Below the pieces are notes generated by a model. The model saw nothing but the letters and a program-made list of their open reading frames with translations, did not search any database and was not told where the DNA came from. DNA of 39,544 nt, taken from Nanobdellota archaeon (GTDB taxonomy: Archaea; Nanobdellota; Nanobdellia; SCGC-AAA011-G17; UBA489). The position numbers were made by a program, and so were the translations under genes. The DNA lies in NCBI GenBank assembly GCA_030699455.1, contig JAUYMN010000007.1, forward strand, positions 1 to 39,544, written 5' to 3'. The number at the start of each line of letters is the position of its first letter. The stretch's first letter is position 1. Positions 6,729-39,469 of the stretch are shown one piece after another.

Positions 6729-6761
6729 CTTGACTTCGTCAAGACAAAATGTGCGAAGCAC
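6729..6761. repeat. Two adjacent hairpins with TTC/GAA loops
   Basis: CTTGAC-TTC-GTCAAG (6729-6743) sits just after the stop of the Lrp gene, and GTGC-GAA-GCAC (6751-6761) follows 7 nt later. The first could help end transcription. Both belong to the recurring set of small perfect hairpins with a GAA (or TTC on the other strand) loop found only in the accessory regions of this window. Confidence 0.55.
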
Positions 6762-6880
6762 TAAGACGGCTCACTTTTTTTATTAACGACAATTTCTACA
6801 TTTTAGGGGTGGGTGGTCGGGGGTATTGAAGTGCCATCTTTACTAACTTTTACATTTCAGTTTTGGCTCACGATTGAGTT

Positions 6881-6945
6881 GAATTTCTGTTATATTCTCG
6901 AATGGAACGAAGTGTAGTGAGGGTGAGCGAACGAAGTGAGGAGAG
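6881..6945 (+). repeat. Boundary element left of the YrdC unit
   Basis: Begins GAATTTCTGTTATATTCTCG, matching the conserved box of the other elements (compare CATAATTCTTGTTATATTCC at 37264 and 39401). It is followed by GGAACGAAGTGTAGTGAGG and GAGCGAACGAAGTGAGGAGAG, and ends at the GAG|TT junction 6945/6946. A unit that would own this element should start with the reverse complement of the bases before it (near 6860-6880); I could not find such a start upstream, so the left-hand unit appears incomplete. Confidence 0.6.
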
Positions 6946-6959
6946 TTCAGAAAAAGCCC
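6946..6959 (+). repeat. Left inverted arm of the YrdC unit
   Basis: TTCAGAAAAAGCCC directly after the GAG|TT junction. It is perfectly complementary to GGGCTTTTTCTGAA at 7685-7698, just before the conserved box of the unit's own right-hand element. The arm touches the stop codon of the YrdC-like gene. Confidence 0.75.
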
Positions 6960-7618
6960 TAAAGTAACTTCATCTTTTTAAGTTCTATGTTAATTTTTTT
7001 AAACAATATTCCTTTCCTAATTATTTTTTTATCTACAATATCAAAAACAGTACTCCCTAGGTTTTTATTAGTTGTTGGGTCTACTGCCCCATATTTTGTT
7101 TTTCCGCAATCAATTATTAAATCAGAACTATTTTTTATTTCCTCTTCAACATCTCTGAGCAAGTAATGATTCCCGTTATTTGAAATGTTTGCGCTAGAAC
7201 CATACACAAGTTTTCCCCTATCCCATAAATATAATGCAATTTCATTACCCAAATTACCCATATTAATAAAAACCCCAATTTTATTCTTTAAAATAAGTTT
7301 AGTGGGCAATTTTTCCATCACTTTTGTTCTTCTTACCTTTCCAATTAACCCAATAGGATAAGGAAAGTTATCAAGAATTTCTGCTTTTTTCATTGAAATT
7401 ATTTCCTTAAAAATTGTATGGTTTCCCAGAACAACACATGGACGCCCAAGAGGTCTTTTTTTCATCCGTATAATCTTTTCTAAGGCATTCTTGGTTGTAC
7501 AGATCAAAGCATATCCCACATCAAATGGAAGTAAAACAATTCCGTCTTTAGTTAACACATCATAAATCTTTTGAACAAGGTTTTTCTCCGTAAAATCTTT
7601 TGTTTTAATCAACTCCAT
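6959..7618 (-). CDS. Divergent Sua5/YciO/YrdC-domain protein
   Basis: A 219-residue YrdC-like domain. The usual family makes threonylcarbamoyl-AMP for the t6A37 modification of tRNA. Family features seen are LPFDVGYALICT near residues 30-41 (the place of PTDTVYGL), the KKRPLGRPCVVL segment near 53-64, SSANISNNG near 141-149, and GSTVFDI near 188-194. The first motif departs from the consensus and a second cofactor-binding region looks shortened, so this may be a specialised carbamoyl-type enzyme or a degenerate paralogue rather than the cell's TsaC. A TATA-like GATTTATTAAATTG lies about 27 nt upstream of the ATG. It is the only gene in a unit bounded by inverted arms and boundary elements. 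Confidence 0.75.
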   Translation of the reverse strand: MELIKTKDFTEKNLVQKIYDVLTKDGIVLLPFDVGYALICTTKNALEKIIRMKKRPLGRPCVVLGNHTIFKEIISMKKAEILDNFPYPIGLIGKVRRTKVMEKLPTKLILKNKIGVFINMGNLGNEIALYLWDRGKLVYGSSANISNNGNHYLLRDVEEEIKNSSDLIIDCGKTKYGAVDPTTNKNLGSTVFDIVDKKIIRKGILFKKINIELKKMKLL

Positions 7619-7684
7619 AATTTAGATACAATCTTTTTCAATTTAATAAATCTTTCTTTTAAAATCTTGTTTGTAGTGTCAGAG

Positions 7685-7783
7685 GGGCTTTTTCTGAATT
7701 TTATATAATTGCTGTTATGTCTGGGTGAACATAGTGAAAGGGTGCAACCCGTCCCCGAGCACCGCAACGAAGTGAGTGAAGAG
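7685..7783 (+). repeat. Boundary element with inverted arm, right of the YrdC unit
   Basis: Opens with the right arm GGGCTTTTTCTGAA (7685-7698), then TATATAATTGCTGTTATGTC, the clearest copy of the conserved box. It continues with GTGAACATAGTGAAAG, GGGTGCAACCC (a hairpin) and CGCAACGAAGTGAGTGAAGAG, and ends at GAG|TT 7783/7784. The unit 6946-7783 is thus 838 bp with one gene and this 99-bp element. Confidence 0.75.
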
Positions 7784-21220: not shown

Positions 21221-21993
21221 AGATGATAGATGATAGCGTATTAGAAAACTCAGTTAATTCCTAATATAGATCGTACAATTCCCGTTGATCCTGCGGGAGG
21301 TCGCTGCTATCGGGATTCGAATTAGGCATGCAAGTCAAGATCTCTTCGGAGGTCGGCGAAAGGCTCAGTAACACGTCGATAATCTGCCCTATGGTCTGGG
21401 ATACGCTCGGGAAACTGAGTATAATACCGGATATGAGAAAGTCACTGGAAAGTTCTTTCTCTGAAAGGTTACGCCATAGGATGAGTCGGCGGCTGATTAG
21501 GCTGTTGGTGAGGTAACGGCTCACCAAACCGATGATCAGTAGGGGGTATGAGAGTACTGTCCTCGAGAAGGGCACTGAGACAAGGGCCCTAGCCCTAAGG
21601 GGTGCAGCAGCCACGAAAACTTTACAATGCGCGAAAGCGCGATAGGGGAATCCCGAGTGCTTGCCTTACGGCAGGCTTTTGTTAAGTGTAAGGAGCTTGA
21701 CGAATAAGTGGTGGGTAATACTGGTGCCAGCCGCCGCGGTAACACCAGAGCCACTAGTGGGGGCCATTTTTATTGGGTCTAAAGCGTCCGTAGCCTGTCT
21801 GAAAAGTCCTTTGTGAAATTGTTCGGCTTAACCGAGCAGCGTGCAAGGGAAACTATCGGACTTGGGACCGGGAGACGATAAGAGTATACCTTGGGGAGCG
21901 GTTAAATGTTTTAATCCTTGGTAGACTACCGATAGCGAAGGCACTTATCGAGAACGGGTCTGACGGTCAGGGACGAAGGCTGGGGGAGCAAAC

Positions 21994-22824
21994 TAGCGCC
22001 AAGATAGCTTTATAAACAAAGAAGTTTAGGGGGTTACATGAGGATTAGACAACTCGTGAAACTTTCATCCTATCTTTTATCCGACGGAGGAATATCACCA
22101 AGAGGCAAAAATTCATACACAATATATTTCAGTAATAACGATGCTTCTTTGGTTGATAATTTTCAGATTCAACTTAAAAAATGTATTCACAAAGAGGGAT
22201 ACAAATCTTTAAGAAAAAATGGATCAACCTTCGTAAAAATACACTCAAAAAATTTAGCTAAGGAATTATTTAAAGTCTCTAAGTCATATAGGACAAAAGC
22301 TTGTAAAAACAATCCAATTTGTCCGCATATAAAAAATAAGAGACCAGCACACATCAATACAATATTGGTTGATGGAATTGAATATCCTGCTGCAGAAATA
22401 CCAGTTGAGTTATTAAAAAAAGATAAAACCCTTGCAAAAGATTTTTTAAGAATATATGCAAGTTGTGATGGAGGAGTTTCAGTTTCAGCTGCAAAAAATA
22501 AAAAAAATTCCATTTTTTTAGTAAGGAAAATTTTTATTGAAGTAGCACATCCTACATTGAAGCAGCAAATTTATACACTGCTCAAACATCTAAAATATAA
22601 CCCTAAGTGTTACAAAACAAGCATAAGATTAACTACAAAAGAAGATTTTATAAAGTTTCATAAAGAGATTGGTTTTATTAAAAAATCAAAAATATCAAAA
22701 CATTCAAAGAATTTTGTTGGTTATGAAAAAAATAAAGTTCTCAAGATGTTAATTGATTCTTATAATAATCCTCAAAATCTCCTAAATTTATTGTTGAAGA
22801 ATTAATCTTGGTCTAGGCTCAGAA
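21994..22824 (+). other. Archaeal-type 16S rRNA intron (about 831 nt)
   Basis: Joining ...GGGGGAGCAAAC to CGGATTAGATACCC restores the archaeal consensus exactly, which sets the boundaries to within one or two bases. The insertion corresponds to about E. coli position 781, a place where 16S introns are known in other archaea. Close to the ends, 21998-22005 can pair with 22805-22812 (eight pairs), and CTAG at 21993-21996 faces CTAG at 22813-22816. This is the stem expected of a bulge-helix-bulge intron cut by the tRNA splicing endonuclease. The exact bulges could not be resolved by eye. Confidence 0.88.
22038..22805 (+). CDS. LAGLIDADG homing endonuclease in the 16S intron
   Basis: A 255-residue protein with two LAGLIDADG motifs: LSSYLLSDGGI near residues 9-19 (Asp16) and FLRIYASCDGGV near 136-147 (Asp144). 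A double-motif monomer of this size fits a homing endonuclease that cuts intron-less 16S genes at the insertion site. The ATG is preceded by AGGGGGTTAC, a possible ribosome site. The stop codon lies at the first pairs of the closing intron stem. Base composition is much richer in A/T than the rRNA around it. The frame is intact, so the intron may still be mobile. Confidence 0.92.
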   Translation: MRIRQLVKLSSYLLSDGGISPRGKNSYTIYFSNNDASLVDNFQIQLKKCIHKEGYKSLRKNGSTFVKIHSKNLAKELFKVSKSYRTKACKNNPICPHIKNKRPAHINTILVDGIEYPAAEIPVELLKKDKTLAKDFLRIYASCDGGVSVSAAKNKKNSIFLVRKIFIEVAHPTLKQQIYTLLKHLKYNPKCYKTSIRLTTKEDFIKFHKEIGFIKKSKISKHSKNFVGYEKNKVLKMLIDSYNNPQNLLNLLLKN

Positions 22825-23749
22825 CGGATTAGATACCCGTGTAGTCCCAGCAGTAAACGCTGCCCATTATGTGTTGCGTATCCCACGAGGGTATGCAGTG
22901 CCGTAGCGAAGGCGTTAAATGGGCCACCTGGGTAGTACGGTCGCAAGACTGAAACTTTAAGGAATTGGCGGGGGAGCACTACAATCGGTGACGCGTGCGG
23001 TTTAATTTAACTCCACACAGAGAATCTCACCAGCAGCGACGGCAGTATGAAGGTCAGATTGAAGGTCTTACCTGACGAGCCGAGAGATGTTGCATGGCCG
23101 CCGTCAGCTCGTGCCGCAAGGTGTCCGGTTAAGTCCGGCAACGAGCAAGACCTGTACTTCTATTTGCTAACGAGTCCTCCGGGATGATCGAGCACAATAG
23201 CGGGACTGCCTTGGTAACAAGGAGGAAGGTGCAGGCAACGGTAGGTCTGTATGACTCGAATCTGCTGGGCTACACGCGCGCGGCAATGTCTAGTACAATT
23301 GGATGCAACTCCGAAAGGAGAAGCTAATCCCCGAAAGCTAGGCCTAGTACAGATTGAGGGTTGTAACTTACCCTCATGACGCTGGAATCGATAGTAATCG
23401 CTTGTCATCAGCAAGCGGTGAATACGTCCCTGTTCCTTGCACACACTGCCCGTCAAATCAACCGAGCAGGGTTTAAGTGAGGGTTGCATTACGGTGCGAT
23501 TCGAACTTAGATTCAGTGAGGTGGGTTAAGTCGTCACAAGGTATCCGTAGGGGAACCTGCGGATGGATCACCTCCTATTTTTTAAAAATGCTGAGAAATC
23601 TTTATGCTGTCAGTCAAAATTGTCATGCCTATGTTTATTTTTGTTTTTCTTTAGAAGAAGAGGCACTCTAAAAATAGTAGGAGTATTATTTTTTCTTCAT
23701 CTTTTCCAATTGATAAAACACCAATCTCCATAGAATCTTCATCAAATAA

Positions 23750-24993: not shown

Positions 24994-25053
24994 TGTATAA
25001 TTGTTGTTATGCTGGGGGGAGGGAGTGATAGCGACGAAAGCGCAACGTCTCAT
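24994..25053 (+). repeat. Boundary element between hydrolase and DUF3850 unit
   Basis: TGTATAATTGTTGTTATGCTG is a copy of the conserved box, followed by GAGTGATAGCGACGAAAGCGCAACGTCT. Unlike the other copies it ends CAT|TT instead of GAG|TT, and it is shorter at its right end, so it may have lost a few bases. Confidence 0.6.
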
Positions 25054-25055
25054 TT

Positions 25056-25073
25056 AACATTTGTAATTGTGCC
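25056..25073 (+). repeat. Left inverted arm of the DUF3850 unit
   Basis: AACATTTGTAATTGTGCC, perfectly complementary over 18 bases to GGCACAATTACAAATGTT at 25376-25393. The pair encloses exactly one gene with its promoter; the left arm lies three bases after the stop codon. Confidence 0.8.
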
Positions 25074-25076
25074 GTC

Positions 25077-25337
25077 CTACTTGAAAGCTATGATTTGATA
25101 ACCATATTTTTCAACATCTTCTTTTGACCAGAATGTAAAATTTTTAGTTTTGCCAACATAAGTAACTTCTTTTTCAATTTCTCTTCCAGTGTATTCTTTG
25201 GTTTCTGGGTTCCATTCTTGCAAAACTAAAATATCTTCTTCGTTGCATTCCCAATCGGCAAGACGAAGCTCATATGTTTTTTTACCATCAAGTATTTTTT
25301 GAAAATATTCTGGCCAAACTTTTTTTGTGTGTCTCAT
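25077..25337 (-). CDS. DUF3850 / ASCH-like small protein
   Basis: An 86-residue protein, HTKKVWPEYFQKILDGKKTY then ELRLADWECNEEDILVLQEW...TGREIEKEVTYVG. The H-x-K-x-W-P-E-Y-F, GKKTYELR and TGR signatures are those of DUF3850, a branch of the PUA/ASCH-like fold thought to bind RNA or modified bases. The start is taken at the Met before RHTKK because TTTATAAAG (about 25361-25369) lies 25-30 nt upstream; a longer frame to 25382 would run through this TATA box. It is the only gene in a 408-bp cassette-like unit. Confidence 0.78.
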   Translation of the reverse strand: MRHTKKVWPEYFQKILDGKKTYELRLADWECNEEDILVLQEWNPETKEYTGREIEKEVTYVGKTKNFTFWSKEDVEKYGYQIIAFK

Positions 25338-25375
25338 AAAAATATGGTTATCTCTTAACTTTATAAAATTTGCTA

Positions 25376-25461
25376 GGCACAATTACAAATGTTGTATAAT
25401 CTGCTGTTCTGCGTGGTTTTCCGAAGGAAAAAGTGCAACATCCCGAAGGGAAATTTCAGAG
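25376..25461 (+). repeat. Boundary element with inverted arm, right of the DUF3850 unit
   Basis: Opens with the right arm (25376-25393), then GTATAATCTGCTGTTCTGCG (box copy). Two hairpins with GAA loops follow: TTTTCC-GAA-GGAAAA (25417-25431) and TCCC-GAA-GGGA (25441-25451). It ends AAATTTCAGAG|TT at 25461/25462, the same ending as the elements on both sides of recQ. Confidence 0.75.
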
Positions 25462-25476
25462 TTATTTTTTAGCCCC
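25462..25476 (+). repeat. Left inverted arm of the small membrane protein unit
   Basis: TTATTTTTTAGCCCC directly after GAG|TT, complementary over 15 bases to GGGGCTAAAAAATAA at 25768-25782. Here the arm contains the stop codon and last codons of the gene, so the coding sequence has taken over part of the arm. Confidence 0.8.
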
Positions 25477-25722
25477 GTACTTCAACCATAATTTTTTGAA
25501 AAAAGGCAAAGATAATGTTGAGAGAACAAAGCCAGTTGTAGGAACAATAGAGTTGATAAATGGTTTCGGCAATTGAGCCATATAGAAAAATAATACAATT
25601 ACTGCATAAGTTAGAATTGCAATAATTATTTTTCTTGACCAGCTTGTTTCCCAAGCTTTGTCTAATTCAACTTTCTTATTCCTTTGCTCAATTGCGTTAA
25701 GCCTTTTTTCAAAATCACTCAT
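25462..25722 (-). CDS. Small two-helix membrane protein
   Basis: An 86-residue protein. An N-terminal charged helix (SDFEKRLNAIEQRNKKVELD) is followed by KAWETSWSRK and two membrane segments (IIIAILTYAVIVLFFYM and FINSIVPTTGFVLSTLSLPF), ending FKKLWLKYGAKK. The sequence style is that of a widespread small membrane family with the KAWETS motif, which I recall from many CPR bacteria; function is unknown. The TATA-like CTTAATAAAC lies about 27 nt upstream. It is the only gene in the unit 25462-25875. The family link to bacteria, if confirmed, would support transfer between domains. Confidence 0.72.
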   Translation of the reverse strand: MSDFEKRLNAIEQRNKKVELDKAWETSWSRKIIIAILTYAVIVLFFYMAQLPKPFINSIVPTTGFVLSTLSLPFFKKLWLKYGAKK

Positions 25723-25767
25723 AATGAAATTAGATTGGAGATTAAAGTTTATTAAGTTTTCTTTCTA

Positions 25768-25875
25768 GGGGCTAAAAAATAATTGAATATAATCGCTGTT
25801 ATGTCTGGGTGAGCGAATGCGAAAGTCTGCAAGACGACCCCGAGGATTTTTTCTCGTAGAGAAAAAACCGCAGAG
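25768..25875 (+). repeat. Boundary element with inverted arm, right of the membrane-protein unit
   Basis: Right arm GGGGCTAAAAAATAA (25768-25782), then ATATAATCGCTGTTATGTC (box), GTGAGCGAATGCGAAAG and TCTGCAAGACGAC (shared with 3395-3502). A hairpin TTTTTTCTC-GTA-GAGAAAAAA follows, and it ends CGCAGAG|TT at 25875/25876. Confidence 0.75.
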
Positions 25876-28840: not shown

Positions 28841-29065
28841 GTGGTCGGAGGTTTTGAAAAAAATAAGTCTTTGTCCAAGGTATTAAGCAAAAATAAGATA
28901 AAAGAAATAATTAACGTAACCAAGAATATTAAACATAGGTGGATAATAAAGTTTCTGTATTCAACTGGAATCAGACTTCAGGAGTTAATTAATCTTAAGA
29001 GAGAAAATATTGATTTTGACATGAACGTATTATTCTATGCTCTCCAGACATCTGTTAATTTATGA
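28841..29065 (+). pseudogene. Tyrosine recombinase (XerA/integrase family) fragment
   Basis: A 74-codon frame from GTG reads LSKVLSKNKIKEIINVTKNI, KHRWIIKFLYSTGIRLQELI, NLKRENIDFDMN and soon loses similarity. This is the start of the catalytic domain of a tyrosine recombinase: KHR...LYSTGIRLQEL is box I with the catalytic Arg (R45 by this count). The N-terminal core-binding domain, the HxxR box and the Tyr nucleophile are all missing, so the protein cannot be active. The closest style is archaeal XerA-like enzymes. Integron integrases belong to the same superfamily; this fragment lacks the region that would tell them apart. The following 29066-29243 is AT-rich and empty. Confidence 0.75.
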
Positions 29066-37205: not shown

Positions 37206-37332
37206 GAGTCGAACGAAGTGTAATGAGACAAGCGAAGCGAAGAGTTTTGTGTTAGTAAAATTGCACATAATTCTTGTTATATTCCCTGAATGGCTGAAAT
37301 TTAGTGCAACGTCCTGGAGGAAAATTTCAGAG
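37206..37332 (+). repeat. Two boundary elements in tandem with no gene between
   Basis: The first ends GAACGAAGTGTAATGAGAC, AAGCGAAGCGAAGAG|TT at 37244/37245. The second runs 37261-37332 and is identical at 67 of 72 positions to 39398-39469 on the other side of recQ. It has TTGCAC...GTGCAA and CTGAAATTT...AAATTTCAG pairs and ends CAGAG|TT. Between the two lie only 16 bases (TTTTGTGTTAGTAAAA), with TTTT and AAAA as minimal arms: an 88-bp unit without a gene. The rest of 37019-37205 is AT-rich with no gene seen. Confidence 0.7.
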
Positions 37333-37363
37333 TTTGTCCCTCGCAGTTTTTTAGGAAGCCCCC
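37333..37363 (+). repeat. Left inverted arm of the recQ unit
   Basis: TTTGTCCCTCGC (37333-37344) pairs perfectly with GCGAGGGACAAA (39386-39397), and GGAAGCCCCC (37354-37363) with GGGGGCTTCC (39360-39369). Both pairs are in the proper nested order. Beyond the arm a hairpin CTTCTTTTTTTCT-AAAAAAGAAG lies near 37370-37392. Confidence 0.8.
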
Positions 37364-37404
37364 CTTTTGCTTCTTTTTTTCTAAAAAAGAAGACGGGCAG
37401 GACT

Positions 37405-37491
37405 TTAATTTAATCCTTGTTTTCTTAATCTTGAGCTAATTGCATTTGGTTGACGTTTTAAAATTTGAGCAATTTCATTGATAGAAACATT
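37405..37491 (-). pseudogene. Lost helix-turn-helix tail of RecQ behind an in-frame TAG
   Basis: Directly after the TAG stop of recQ (37492-37494) the same frame continues for 28 codons, NVSINEIAQILKRQPNAISS then RLRKQGLN, to TAA. This is a typical small DNA-binding tail (S-I-x-E-I-A...R...A-I-x-S-R-L-x-K) found after the HRDC domain in related helicases. A single base change (for example from AAG or GAG) explains the break. Confidence 0.65.
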
Positions 37492-39141
37492 CTAGAGATA
37501 TAATTTTTTTAATTTGTTATCTTCTTCTCCCCCCCAAGGTTCATAAGCATTTCGATATTTCTCTTTGATTTGTTCTAATCTTTCATGATAATTAGTTTTC
37601 ATATTATTTTTAACAGAATCTTTTTTTTGACTTCTCCTAATATTTCTTTCAGGAACAATGTTGTTTTCTCTTACATAATCATTTATTATTTTCAAAAAAG
37701 ATTCTCCAAAATCCTTTAATTTTTGTTGTCCAACACCATTAATTCTCAAGAATTCATGTTCATTTTTTGGAAAGTAGGACGACATTTCCCTCAAAGAAAC
37801 ATCCCCAAATATAATGAAGGGGGGAACGTTTCTTTCATCAGCAATTTGTTTTCTTAGAGTTCGAAGTTTTTCAAATAAGTTTTTATCATAAGTAATTTTC
37901 TCTTTTACATCTTCAAGAATTAAACTCTTATCTCTAATATCAACTTTTATCTCTGGAATATTTAAGCAAACGTCACATCCACTACAATTATTTTCTGGAA
38001 AAGATTCTCCAAAATATCCTAAGATGTCTTTTCTTCTACATGAGGTATTTTCGCAGTATATCATCATTTTATTCAATTTATCTAATGCACTACTTCTAAT
38101 TGTATCTTCTTGAATTTGGTCAATAAAAAACTCGTGCTTTCTTTTATCTCCTTTTGAATAAAACAAAACACAATCACTTGAAAGCCCATCTCGTCCAGCT
38201 CTCCCTATCTCTTGATAATATCCTTCTATTGATTTTGAGAAAGTATGGTGAATTATTAATCTAACATCAGGTTTATCTATTCCCATACCAAAAGCAATTG
38301 TAGCTACAATAATATTTATTTGGTCTTTAGTAAATAACTCTTGATTTTGTTTTCTTATATTATTAGGAAGTCCAGCATGGTAGGGGAGAGCTTTAAGTCC
38401 ATTTTCTTTTAATTGCCGAGCAATATTCTCTGTATCTTTACGAGAAAAGCAATAAATAATAATAGATTCATTTTTATGTCTTTTAATCAAGCTCAAGATT
38501 TTATTGAAAGTATTCTTTTTTTGAGTTACTATTAGATTCAGATTTTTTCTGTTAAAACTAGAAATAAAAATTTGTGGATTTACTAAAGATAACTGTTTTA
38601 CAATATCTTCCCTTACTTTTAATGTTGCTGTTGCAGTTAAGGCAATTACTGGAGTGTTTGGAAAAAGTTTTTTTAAAAACTTTAAATTTCTGTAATCCGG
38701 TCTAAAATCATGTCCCCATTCCGAAATACAATGTGCCTCATCAATTGCGATTAAGCTTATCTGAAGCGTTGTTAAAAATATTTTAAACTCTTCCAGTGCC
38801 AATCTTTCTGGAGCAATATACAGAATTTTAACTTCCTTTTCTTGAATTTTTTTCTTAATGTTCTCAATTTCATTAAAAGAAAGAGTGGAGTTGATGTATT
38901 CTGCACTTATTCCATTTGTTTTTAAATTGTCTACTTGGTCTTTCATCAAAGAAATAAGTGGTGAAATTACAATTGTCAATCCTTCAAGTTTAAGAGCTGG
39001 AATTTGATAACAAAGCGATTTTCCTCCTCCTGTAGGCATTAAAACAAGCGAATCTTTTTTTTGAAGAGCATTGTTAATAATATCTAATTGCATAGGTCTA
39101 AATTCTTCATACCCAAAATATTTTTTTAATAATAATTCCAT
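37492..39141 (-). CDS. recQ: RecQ-family ATP-dependent DNA helicase
   Basis: A 549-residue 3'-5' helicase for repair and recombination. Q motif and Walker A: FGYEEFRPMQ and LMPTGGGKSLCYQ (34-46); DEAH box at 134-137 with the RecQ aromatic loop HCISEWGHDFRPDY; motif VI QEIGRAGRDG. A zinc-binding region has four Cys (YCENTSC...CSGCDVC). The winged-helix RQC part is shortened and followed by an HRDC domain near 425-500. The protein ends at TAG within what looks like a further DNA-binding tail. RecQ is rare in archaea and common in bacteria, which points to transfer. It is the only gene in the largest cassette-like unit; a TATA-like region lies 30-50 nt upstream. Confidence 0.93.
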   Translation of the reverse strand: MELLLKKYFGYEEFRPMQLDIINNALQKKDSLVLMPTGGGKSLCYQIPALKLEGLTIVISPLISLMKDQVDNLKTNGISAEYINSTLSFNEIENIKKKIQEKEVKILYIAPERLALEEFKIFLTTLQISLIAIDEAHCISEWGHDFRPDYRNLKFLKKLFPNTPVIALTATATLKVREDIVKQLSLVNPQIFISSFNRKNLNLIVTQKKNTFNKILSLIKRHKNESIIIYCFSRKDTENIARQLKENGLKALPYHAGLPNNIRKQNQELFTKDQINIIVATIAFGMGIDKPDVRLIIHHTFSKSIEGYYQEIGRAGRDGLSSDCVLFYSKGDKRKHEFFIDQIQEDTIRSSALDKLNKMMIYCENTSCRRKDILGYFGESFPENNCSGCDVCLNIPEIKVDIRDKSLILEDVKEKITYDKNLFEKLRTLRKQIADERNVPPFIIFGDVSLREMSSYFPKNEHEFLRINGVGQQKLKDFGESFLKIINDYVRENNIVPERNIRRSQKKDSVKNNMKTNYHERLEQIKEKYRNAYEPWGGEEDNKLKKLYL

Positions 39142-39385
39142 TTTTTATGTTTGCTCTTGATTATAATAAAATTATGCGGGTATAGATATAAAGTTTTTGT
39201 TGTTTTCGTCATGCCCAAATAAATAGAAAAATTTTGGTGAGTGATAACGAACCTCTTAACCGTTGTTAGACGAAATTTTTAATTTCATTGTGGGTTTCGC
39301 TGGTCGGTTAAGAGAAGTTTTTCTGCGAGGCAAAGCCGAGACTATCTTTCCGAAGGACTGGGGGCTTCCGTTTTTTAGTAAATTA
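39142..39385. other. Promoter side of the recQ unit with a long inverted repeat
   Basis: No gene is seen. Next to the AT-rich promoter, CTCTTAACCG (39253-39262) pairs with CGGTTAAGAG (39305-39314). Inside the loop GTTAGAC occurs, which fits the GTTRRRY core of classical integron sites, though its partner is not clear. The second part of the right arm (39360-39369) is also here. Confidence 0.45.
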
Positions 39386-39469
39386 GCGAGGGACAAATTG
39401 CACATAATTCTTGTTATATTCCCTGTAGGGCTGAAATTTAGTGCAACGTTCCGAAGGAAAATTTCAGAG
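39386..39469 (+). repeat. Boundary element with inverted arm, right of the recQ unit
   Basis: Arm GCGAGGGACAAA (39386-39397) followed by 72 bases almost identical to those left of recQ, including CATAATTCTTGTTATATTCC. The hairpin TTCC-GAA-GGAA (39449-39459) sits inside the larger stem CTGAAATTT/AAATTTCAG. It ends CAGAG|TT at 39469/39470. A next unit begins TTGAGAAAAAGACCGTTCC and runs out of the window; it contains GTAC-GAA-GTAC (39494-39504). Confidence 0.75.

Follow-up and report, generated by a model that had tools for sequence, protein, structure and literature searches.

The window, the whole 39,544-nucleotide stretch of DNA analyzed here, is contig C4 and includes an archaeal 16S rRNA gene. 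The archaeal assembly to which it belongs totals 770 kb, with 82.7% completeness. The window contains a unit in which one minus-strand gene for a YrdC-like protein is enclosed by complementary arms, together with three sister units. The features are listed below in the order of their coordinates.

6740..6883, minus strand: remnant of the neighbouring cassette with its arm TCGTGAGCC; 92/101 match to locus L096, far end approximate
6884..7708, minus strand: whole YrdC cassette between two G/A^TT cores; left end matched, right end by analogy
6889..6897, minus strand: R''-like core GAATATAAC, identical to the R'' of related cassettes
6898..6945, minus strand: diverged counterpart of a structured element of ~50 nt, at the equivalent position between arm and R''
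6946-6959: left arm, TTCAGAAAAAGCCC on the plus strand; lies on the 3' side of the gene in canonical orientation and pairs exactly with 7685-7698
6959..7618, minus strand: YrdC/YciO-like protein, 219 aa (P0001); PF01300, 51.1 bits, E = 1.5e-13
7685-7698: complementary arm GGGCTTTTTCTGAA; gene-5' side in canonical orientation, exact reverse complement of 6946-6959
7699..7708, minus strand: R'-like start of the cassette, TTATATAAAA, adjoining the arm
7704..7723: box, a junction at which the YrdC cassette start (up to 7708) meets the R'' core of its neighbour
25001..25399, minus strand: sister cassette with a DUF3850/ASCH gene; 18-nt arms at 25056-25073 and 25376-25393
25400..25792, minus strand: sister cassette with an 86-aa ORF; 15-nt arms at 25462-25476 and 25768-25782
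37271..39407, minus strand: sister cassette with a RecQ helicase gene; 12-nt arms at 37333-37344 and 39386-39397

The arms, the single minus-strand gene and the box described in the original prediction proved to be real. Both arms are 14 nt long and match exactly, and the box TATAATTGCTGTTATGTCTG at 7704-7723 has a single other copy in the window, at 25788 with 1 mismatch (0/100 in shuffles). A GAG|TT stands directly before the left arm and again near 7783. GAGTT occurs 81 times on the two strands of the window, and an anchored exact arm of at least 12 nt was found at three of these sites only, 25462 (15 nt), 6946 (14 nt) and 37333 (12 nt); random positions gave arms of this length in 4 of 3000 cases. 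The predicted independence of the YrdC unit as a cassette sharing the design of the other sites was borne out.

Each window cassette holds one gene and no transposase, and the cassette with the 86-aa ORF has an 83% identical counterpart in another locus (L048). The recognisable junctions in the window are all of a minimal form, R''-N5-TTAT, without the attC hairpin or body, and their boundary G is often an A. Several other features were observed in the window. At the start of the RecQ cassette (39230-39320), pieces resembling a long attC, TCTAACAACGGTTAAGAGG and CTTCTCTTAACCG, occur in an unusual order. At 37242-37264, two cassette signals enclose a very short segment (GAG|TTTTGTGTTAGTAAAA|TTGC), perhaps a cassette now devoid of its gene. 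A tyrosine recombinase fragment at 28841-29065 is truncated and open for 75 residues only. The 16S rRNA match (21278-23576) extends over ~2.3 kb against a model of 1478 positions and holds a LAGLIDADG-type ORF (22038-22805); this excess length, together with the ORF inside, probably reflects an intron with a homing endonuclease.

GAG|TT had been proposed as the boundary of the unit. Comparisons of the same cassette in different contexts, and the junction of the YrdC cassette with its neighbour, ruled it out as the crossover and placed the boundary instead at G/A^TT cores, which lie farther out than the arms (by ~60 nt on the left and 10 nt on the right). At the left end, the neighbouring cassette agrees with L096 at 92 of 101 positions from 6883 downwards, as opposed to 9 of 40 on the YrdC side. 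Because this match breaks off at 6883, the YrdC cassette was taken to run from 6884 to 7708, its right end being placed between 7708 and 7709 by analogy with the same-cassette comparisons elsewhere. Read on the minus strand, which is the canonical direction, the cassette displays a TTATAT..AA start, an arm, the gene, the complementary arm, a folded element of ~50 nt and R''. Both this direction and the integron-type layout had been missed in the original anatomy. The ~50-nt element of the YrdC cassette is too diverged to be scored by our element model. Given this divergence and the minimal junctions, the place of the YrdC cassette in the family rests on its arms, its cores and the neighbour junction.

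Related loci disclosed the complete anatomy. Where the same cassette occurs in different contexts, homology on the gene strand begins exactly at GTTATATTCAA; the end after R'' leads into a typical attC body, for example ATATAAC AAGGATTATGAGG ... CTTCTCATAATCCTGAC GTTAGCT, whose L''/L' stem is missing from the minimal sites of the window. A conserved tail, once assigned to the downstream end of the cassette, was relocated by this context comparison and sits between the gene and R''. Cassettes bounded by G^TT with complementary R''/R' ends, as in integrons, were present. The R'' of a cassette is an exact complement of its own start over 9 nt in 30 of 50 cases, a set that includes related cassettes (mean of 5000 shuffles 16.7, maximum 25); with one row per distinct end pair, 7.42 of 9 positions are complementary versus 6.59 (sd 0.18). 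Anchored arms of at least 7 nt were detected at 53 of 93 testable sites, compared with 19 of 892 when arms were swapped between sites, and the exact test found no anchored arm at the other 40. The longest ORF follows the canonical direction at 48 of the 53 armed sites. Identical arms surround unrelated genes, which indicates that the arms belong to the frame of the cassette and not to the gene.

The stems of the ~50-nt element covary, with 48 double-change cells versus 17.6 in shuffled alignments and 2-11 in slid controls. This covariation was scored on a structure named from the sequences; RNAalifold, owing to gaps, returned one helix only. In a purely descriptive comparison of folding, the circle junction exceeded the array junction in stability in 28 of 28 cases, by a mean of 13 kcal/mol, largely as a consequence of the arms. 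By inspection, sites in the bacterial loci (L064-L152) start with long attC bodies, and about half of the sites in archaeal loci show a graded shortening that leaves as little as four or five bases. One cassette end, TTTTTGGATTACTGATAAATTCGACC following GAG, is common to many genomes, mostly without an exact matching arm (L034, L040, L046, L051, L061, L077, L125, L134, L141, L146, L154).

The product of the YrdC-like gene belongs by sequence to the fold family of the YrdC/Sua5/YciO superfamily and preserves the KxR and SxN motifs. Unlike typical members, it has P-T-[DE]-T changed to PFDV, and with TIGR00057 it scores 53.8 bits, far below the equivalog cut-off of 123.2, so that it could not be assigned as a Sua5/TsaC t6A synthase. 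The closest solved proteins are Smu.1377c (3l7v) and YciO (1k7j). Retention of KxR and SxN with loss of P-T-[DE]-T makes a YciO/Smu.1377c-like accessory enzyme the likelier role, and the protein is probably of this kind and not a standard t6A synthase. The original prediction had likewise suggested an accessory gene, in agreement with its divergence and its distribution: it is missing from the syntenic place in four congeners and has no match at E<=1e-10 in any other genome of the class (378 genomes), and the idea that it might occupy the same place in all relatives can be dismissed. A second, canonical TsaC/Sua5 gene, which an accessory role had led one to look for, was not found in the genome (~83% complete), where the window gene is the sole PF01300 match; of the two findings that the original prediction had named as refuting it, this one was thus made and a shared place in all relatives was not. 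Among the congeners, one of four has a canonical gene of this family; the other three (G002, G003, G004) show no YrdC/Sua5 family match whatever, despite 92-98% completeness.

One search for the system, with a 25-base query taken from the tails of sister sites and up to 3 mismatches allowed, recovered 31 of the 284 genomes searched in the same class; the reversed control recovered none. The exact IUPAC form of the tail matched 91 stretches among GTDB genomes. On the archaeal side the hosts were Woese-, Pace-, Nano- and Aenigmarchaeota, and on the bacterial side many lineages of CPR besides a few other bins; viral contigs gave no match, and the site was also unmatched by similarity in viral, plasmid and phage collections. 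The box pattern, searched in 99 relatives, gave mostly chance matches. The records are without exception assemblies, in many cases MAGs, and some bacterial labels may be binning errors. Such errors cannot account for the whole spread, since closed chromosomes of archaea (CP010426, CP061211), a chromosome record (CP010425) and CPR contigs of 100-400 kb are among the places where sites occur.

The distribution is patchy at close range. The element model found 11 copies on seven contigs of the genome studied here, zero in four congeners and four confamilials, and copies in 27 of the 61 genomes searched overall; the four congeners lack the accessory integrase described below as well as the elements. 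At long range, three CPR genomes share with a pacearchaeon (L039, whose contig is also that of L149) a cassette for a 171-aa protein at 91-94% identity, and two archaea share one for a 345-aa protein with an Uhrbacterium at 89-90%. The simplest reading of these matches is a transfer of cassettes between archaea and CPR bacteria, direction aside, and near-identical cassettes in DPANN archaea and CPR bacteria point to a gene-trading platform of two domains.

Ten related loci represent complete platforms, in which an integrase gene is divergent from the array, with 63-221 bp from its start codon to the first cassette. The attI-like gap at the head of the array ends in junctions such as GGATAAAAACCA|GTTATATTCAA, and the relative direction of the integrase is constant in nearly all integrase-holding loci. 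In an alignment of 25 integrases, the catalytic R, HxxR, H and Y are invariant and no IntI-specific insert was seen. The insert is also missing from the one enzyme compared directly with IntI, that of L107, whose best match is IntI4 (2a3v) in two stretches separated by 26 residues versus 69. No genome of 284 exceeded the cut-off of the IntI model TIGR02249; the integrases do pass that of NF040815, the XerA_Arch model, and align collinearly with 4a8e. In the genome studied here, contig C14 encodes the XerA that is syntenic within the genus, with 67-71% identity to the enzyme of the congeners. The enzyme on C28 is accessory, sharing 36-39% identity with the XerA of the congeners and 49-55% with integrases at other archaeal arrays; it is intact and accompanied on C28 by just one element, of fitting orientation. 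The boundaries, the complementary ends, the arms, the position and orientation of the integrase and the patchy cross-domain distribution can all be read directly from the sequences.

We therefore consider it very likely that the YrdC unit belongs, as a gene cassette, to a system of site-specific recombination that resembles integrons and is common to DPANN archaea and CPR bacteria. In the proposed mechanism, a canonical cassette (on the minus strand here) would have the form ^TTATATTCAA - armA - gene - armB - ~50-nt structured element - R'' - attC body - G^. The tyrosine recombinase at the head of the array, transcribed away from the cassettes, would excise a cassette as a circle, and the circle would insert at an attI-like or attC junction via a cut at G/A^TT. 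In the circle the two cassette ends meet, and R''/R' and the matching arms could form one long cruciform; in the array, one of the two halves comes from the next cassette, which breaks this extended pairing. A cruciform possible only in the circle would favour the insertion of circles, and the YrdC gene would have arrived in the genome by such an insertion. We infer the circles, excision and transfer, as well as strand use, the acting integrase and the role of the arms.

The window sites lack the attC body, so their current mobility is doubtful, and the YrdC copy may be locked in place. One rival account treats the window as a relic array (CALIN-like), its cassettes brought long ago by the same system and now immobile, with attC bodies deleted down to R''-N5-TTAT. 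Every recognisable junction in the window is minimal, the shortening seen by inspection affects about half of the archaeal sites and leaves the bacterial ones long, and the integrase fragment at 28841-29065 is truncated. However, an intact accessory integrase lies beside an element on C28, and minimal sites could still serve as Xer-type duplex cores. We give the relic account an even chance; as to origin, it is compatible with the integron-like system. The minimal box, with its arm-6 bp-arm layout, could also be taken as a duplex dif-like core (ATATAA-6 bp-TTAT) at which the housekeeping XerA moves genes, as in pdif modules, and folding would then be irrelevant. Although the scores above the XerA_Arch cut-off agree with this, we regard it as unlikely in view of the long attC bodies, complementary cassette ends and array-head integrases of related loci, and of the congeners that have an orthologous XerA and no elements.

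A single gene enclosed by perfectly inverted arms might suggest a transposon with terminal inverted repeats and YrdC as passenger. The arms are nevertheless unlike between cassettes of one genome, the homology boundaries lie outside them at G/A^TT, and the one-gene window cassettes carry no transposase; the arms were accordingly rejected as terminal inverted repeats, and a transposon is highly improbable. Structured repeats scattered next to unrelated genes and lacking mobility (REP-like, or the 3' ends of RNAs) would fit the structured and dispersed ~50-nt element, but hardly a cassette 91-94% identical in two domains with sharp boundaries, the integrase linkage or the complementary cassette ends, and this explanation appears equally implausible.

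Compared with known integrons (IntI, attI, attC; for archaeal ones PMC9668308), the integron-like system shares tandem one-gene cassettes with a G^TT boundary, complementary R''/R' ends, a long L''/L' stem in full sites, a divergent tyrosine recombinase with an attI-like junction, accessory genes and cross-domain spread. In contrast to them, its integrase is without the IntI-specific insert, its cassettes have long cassette-specific arms and a conserved structured element of ~50 nt beside R'', and the system is common to CPR and DPANN, with a site unmatched by similarity in plasmid and phage collections. With archaeal XerA/dif it has in common integrases within the XerA_Arch model that are collinear with 4a8e; it differs in the linkage of these enzymes to cassette arrays and, in the genome studied here, in a C28 enzyme distinct from the syntenic XerA. 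In open-access literature we found no description of integrons in CPR. A broader proposal, whose odds we consider evenly balanced, is that this represents a distinct integron class in ultra-small prokaryotes, in which Xer-type integrases work without the IntI domain, the arms complete a composite hairpin only in the excised circle and thereby bias toward insertion, and CPR and DPANN exchange genes.

Archaeal attC clusters have mostly turned up without an integrase, six IntIs having been reported versus 539 attCs (PMC9668308, Ghaly et al. 2022). A Xer-type integrase without the IntI insert would escape IntI models and could be the missing enzyme of these lineages. Through these integrases, the need for the IntI insert in folded-site recombination becomes testable. 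CPR bacteria and DPANN archaea, with their very small genomes, would gain a common and searchable platform for gene exchange.
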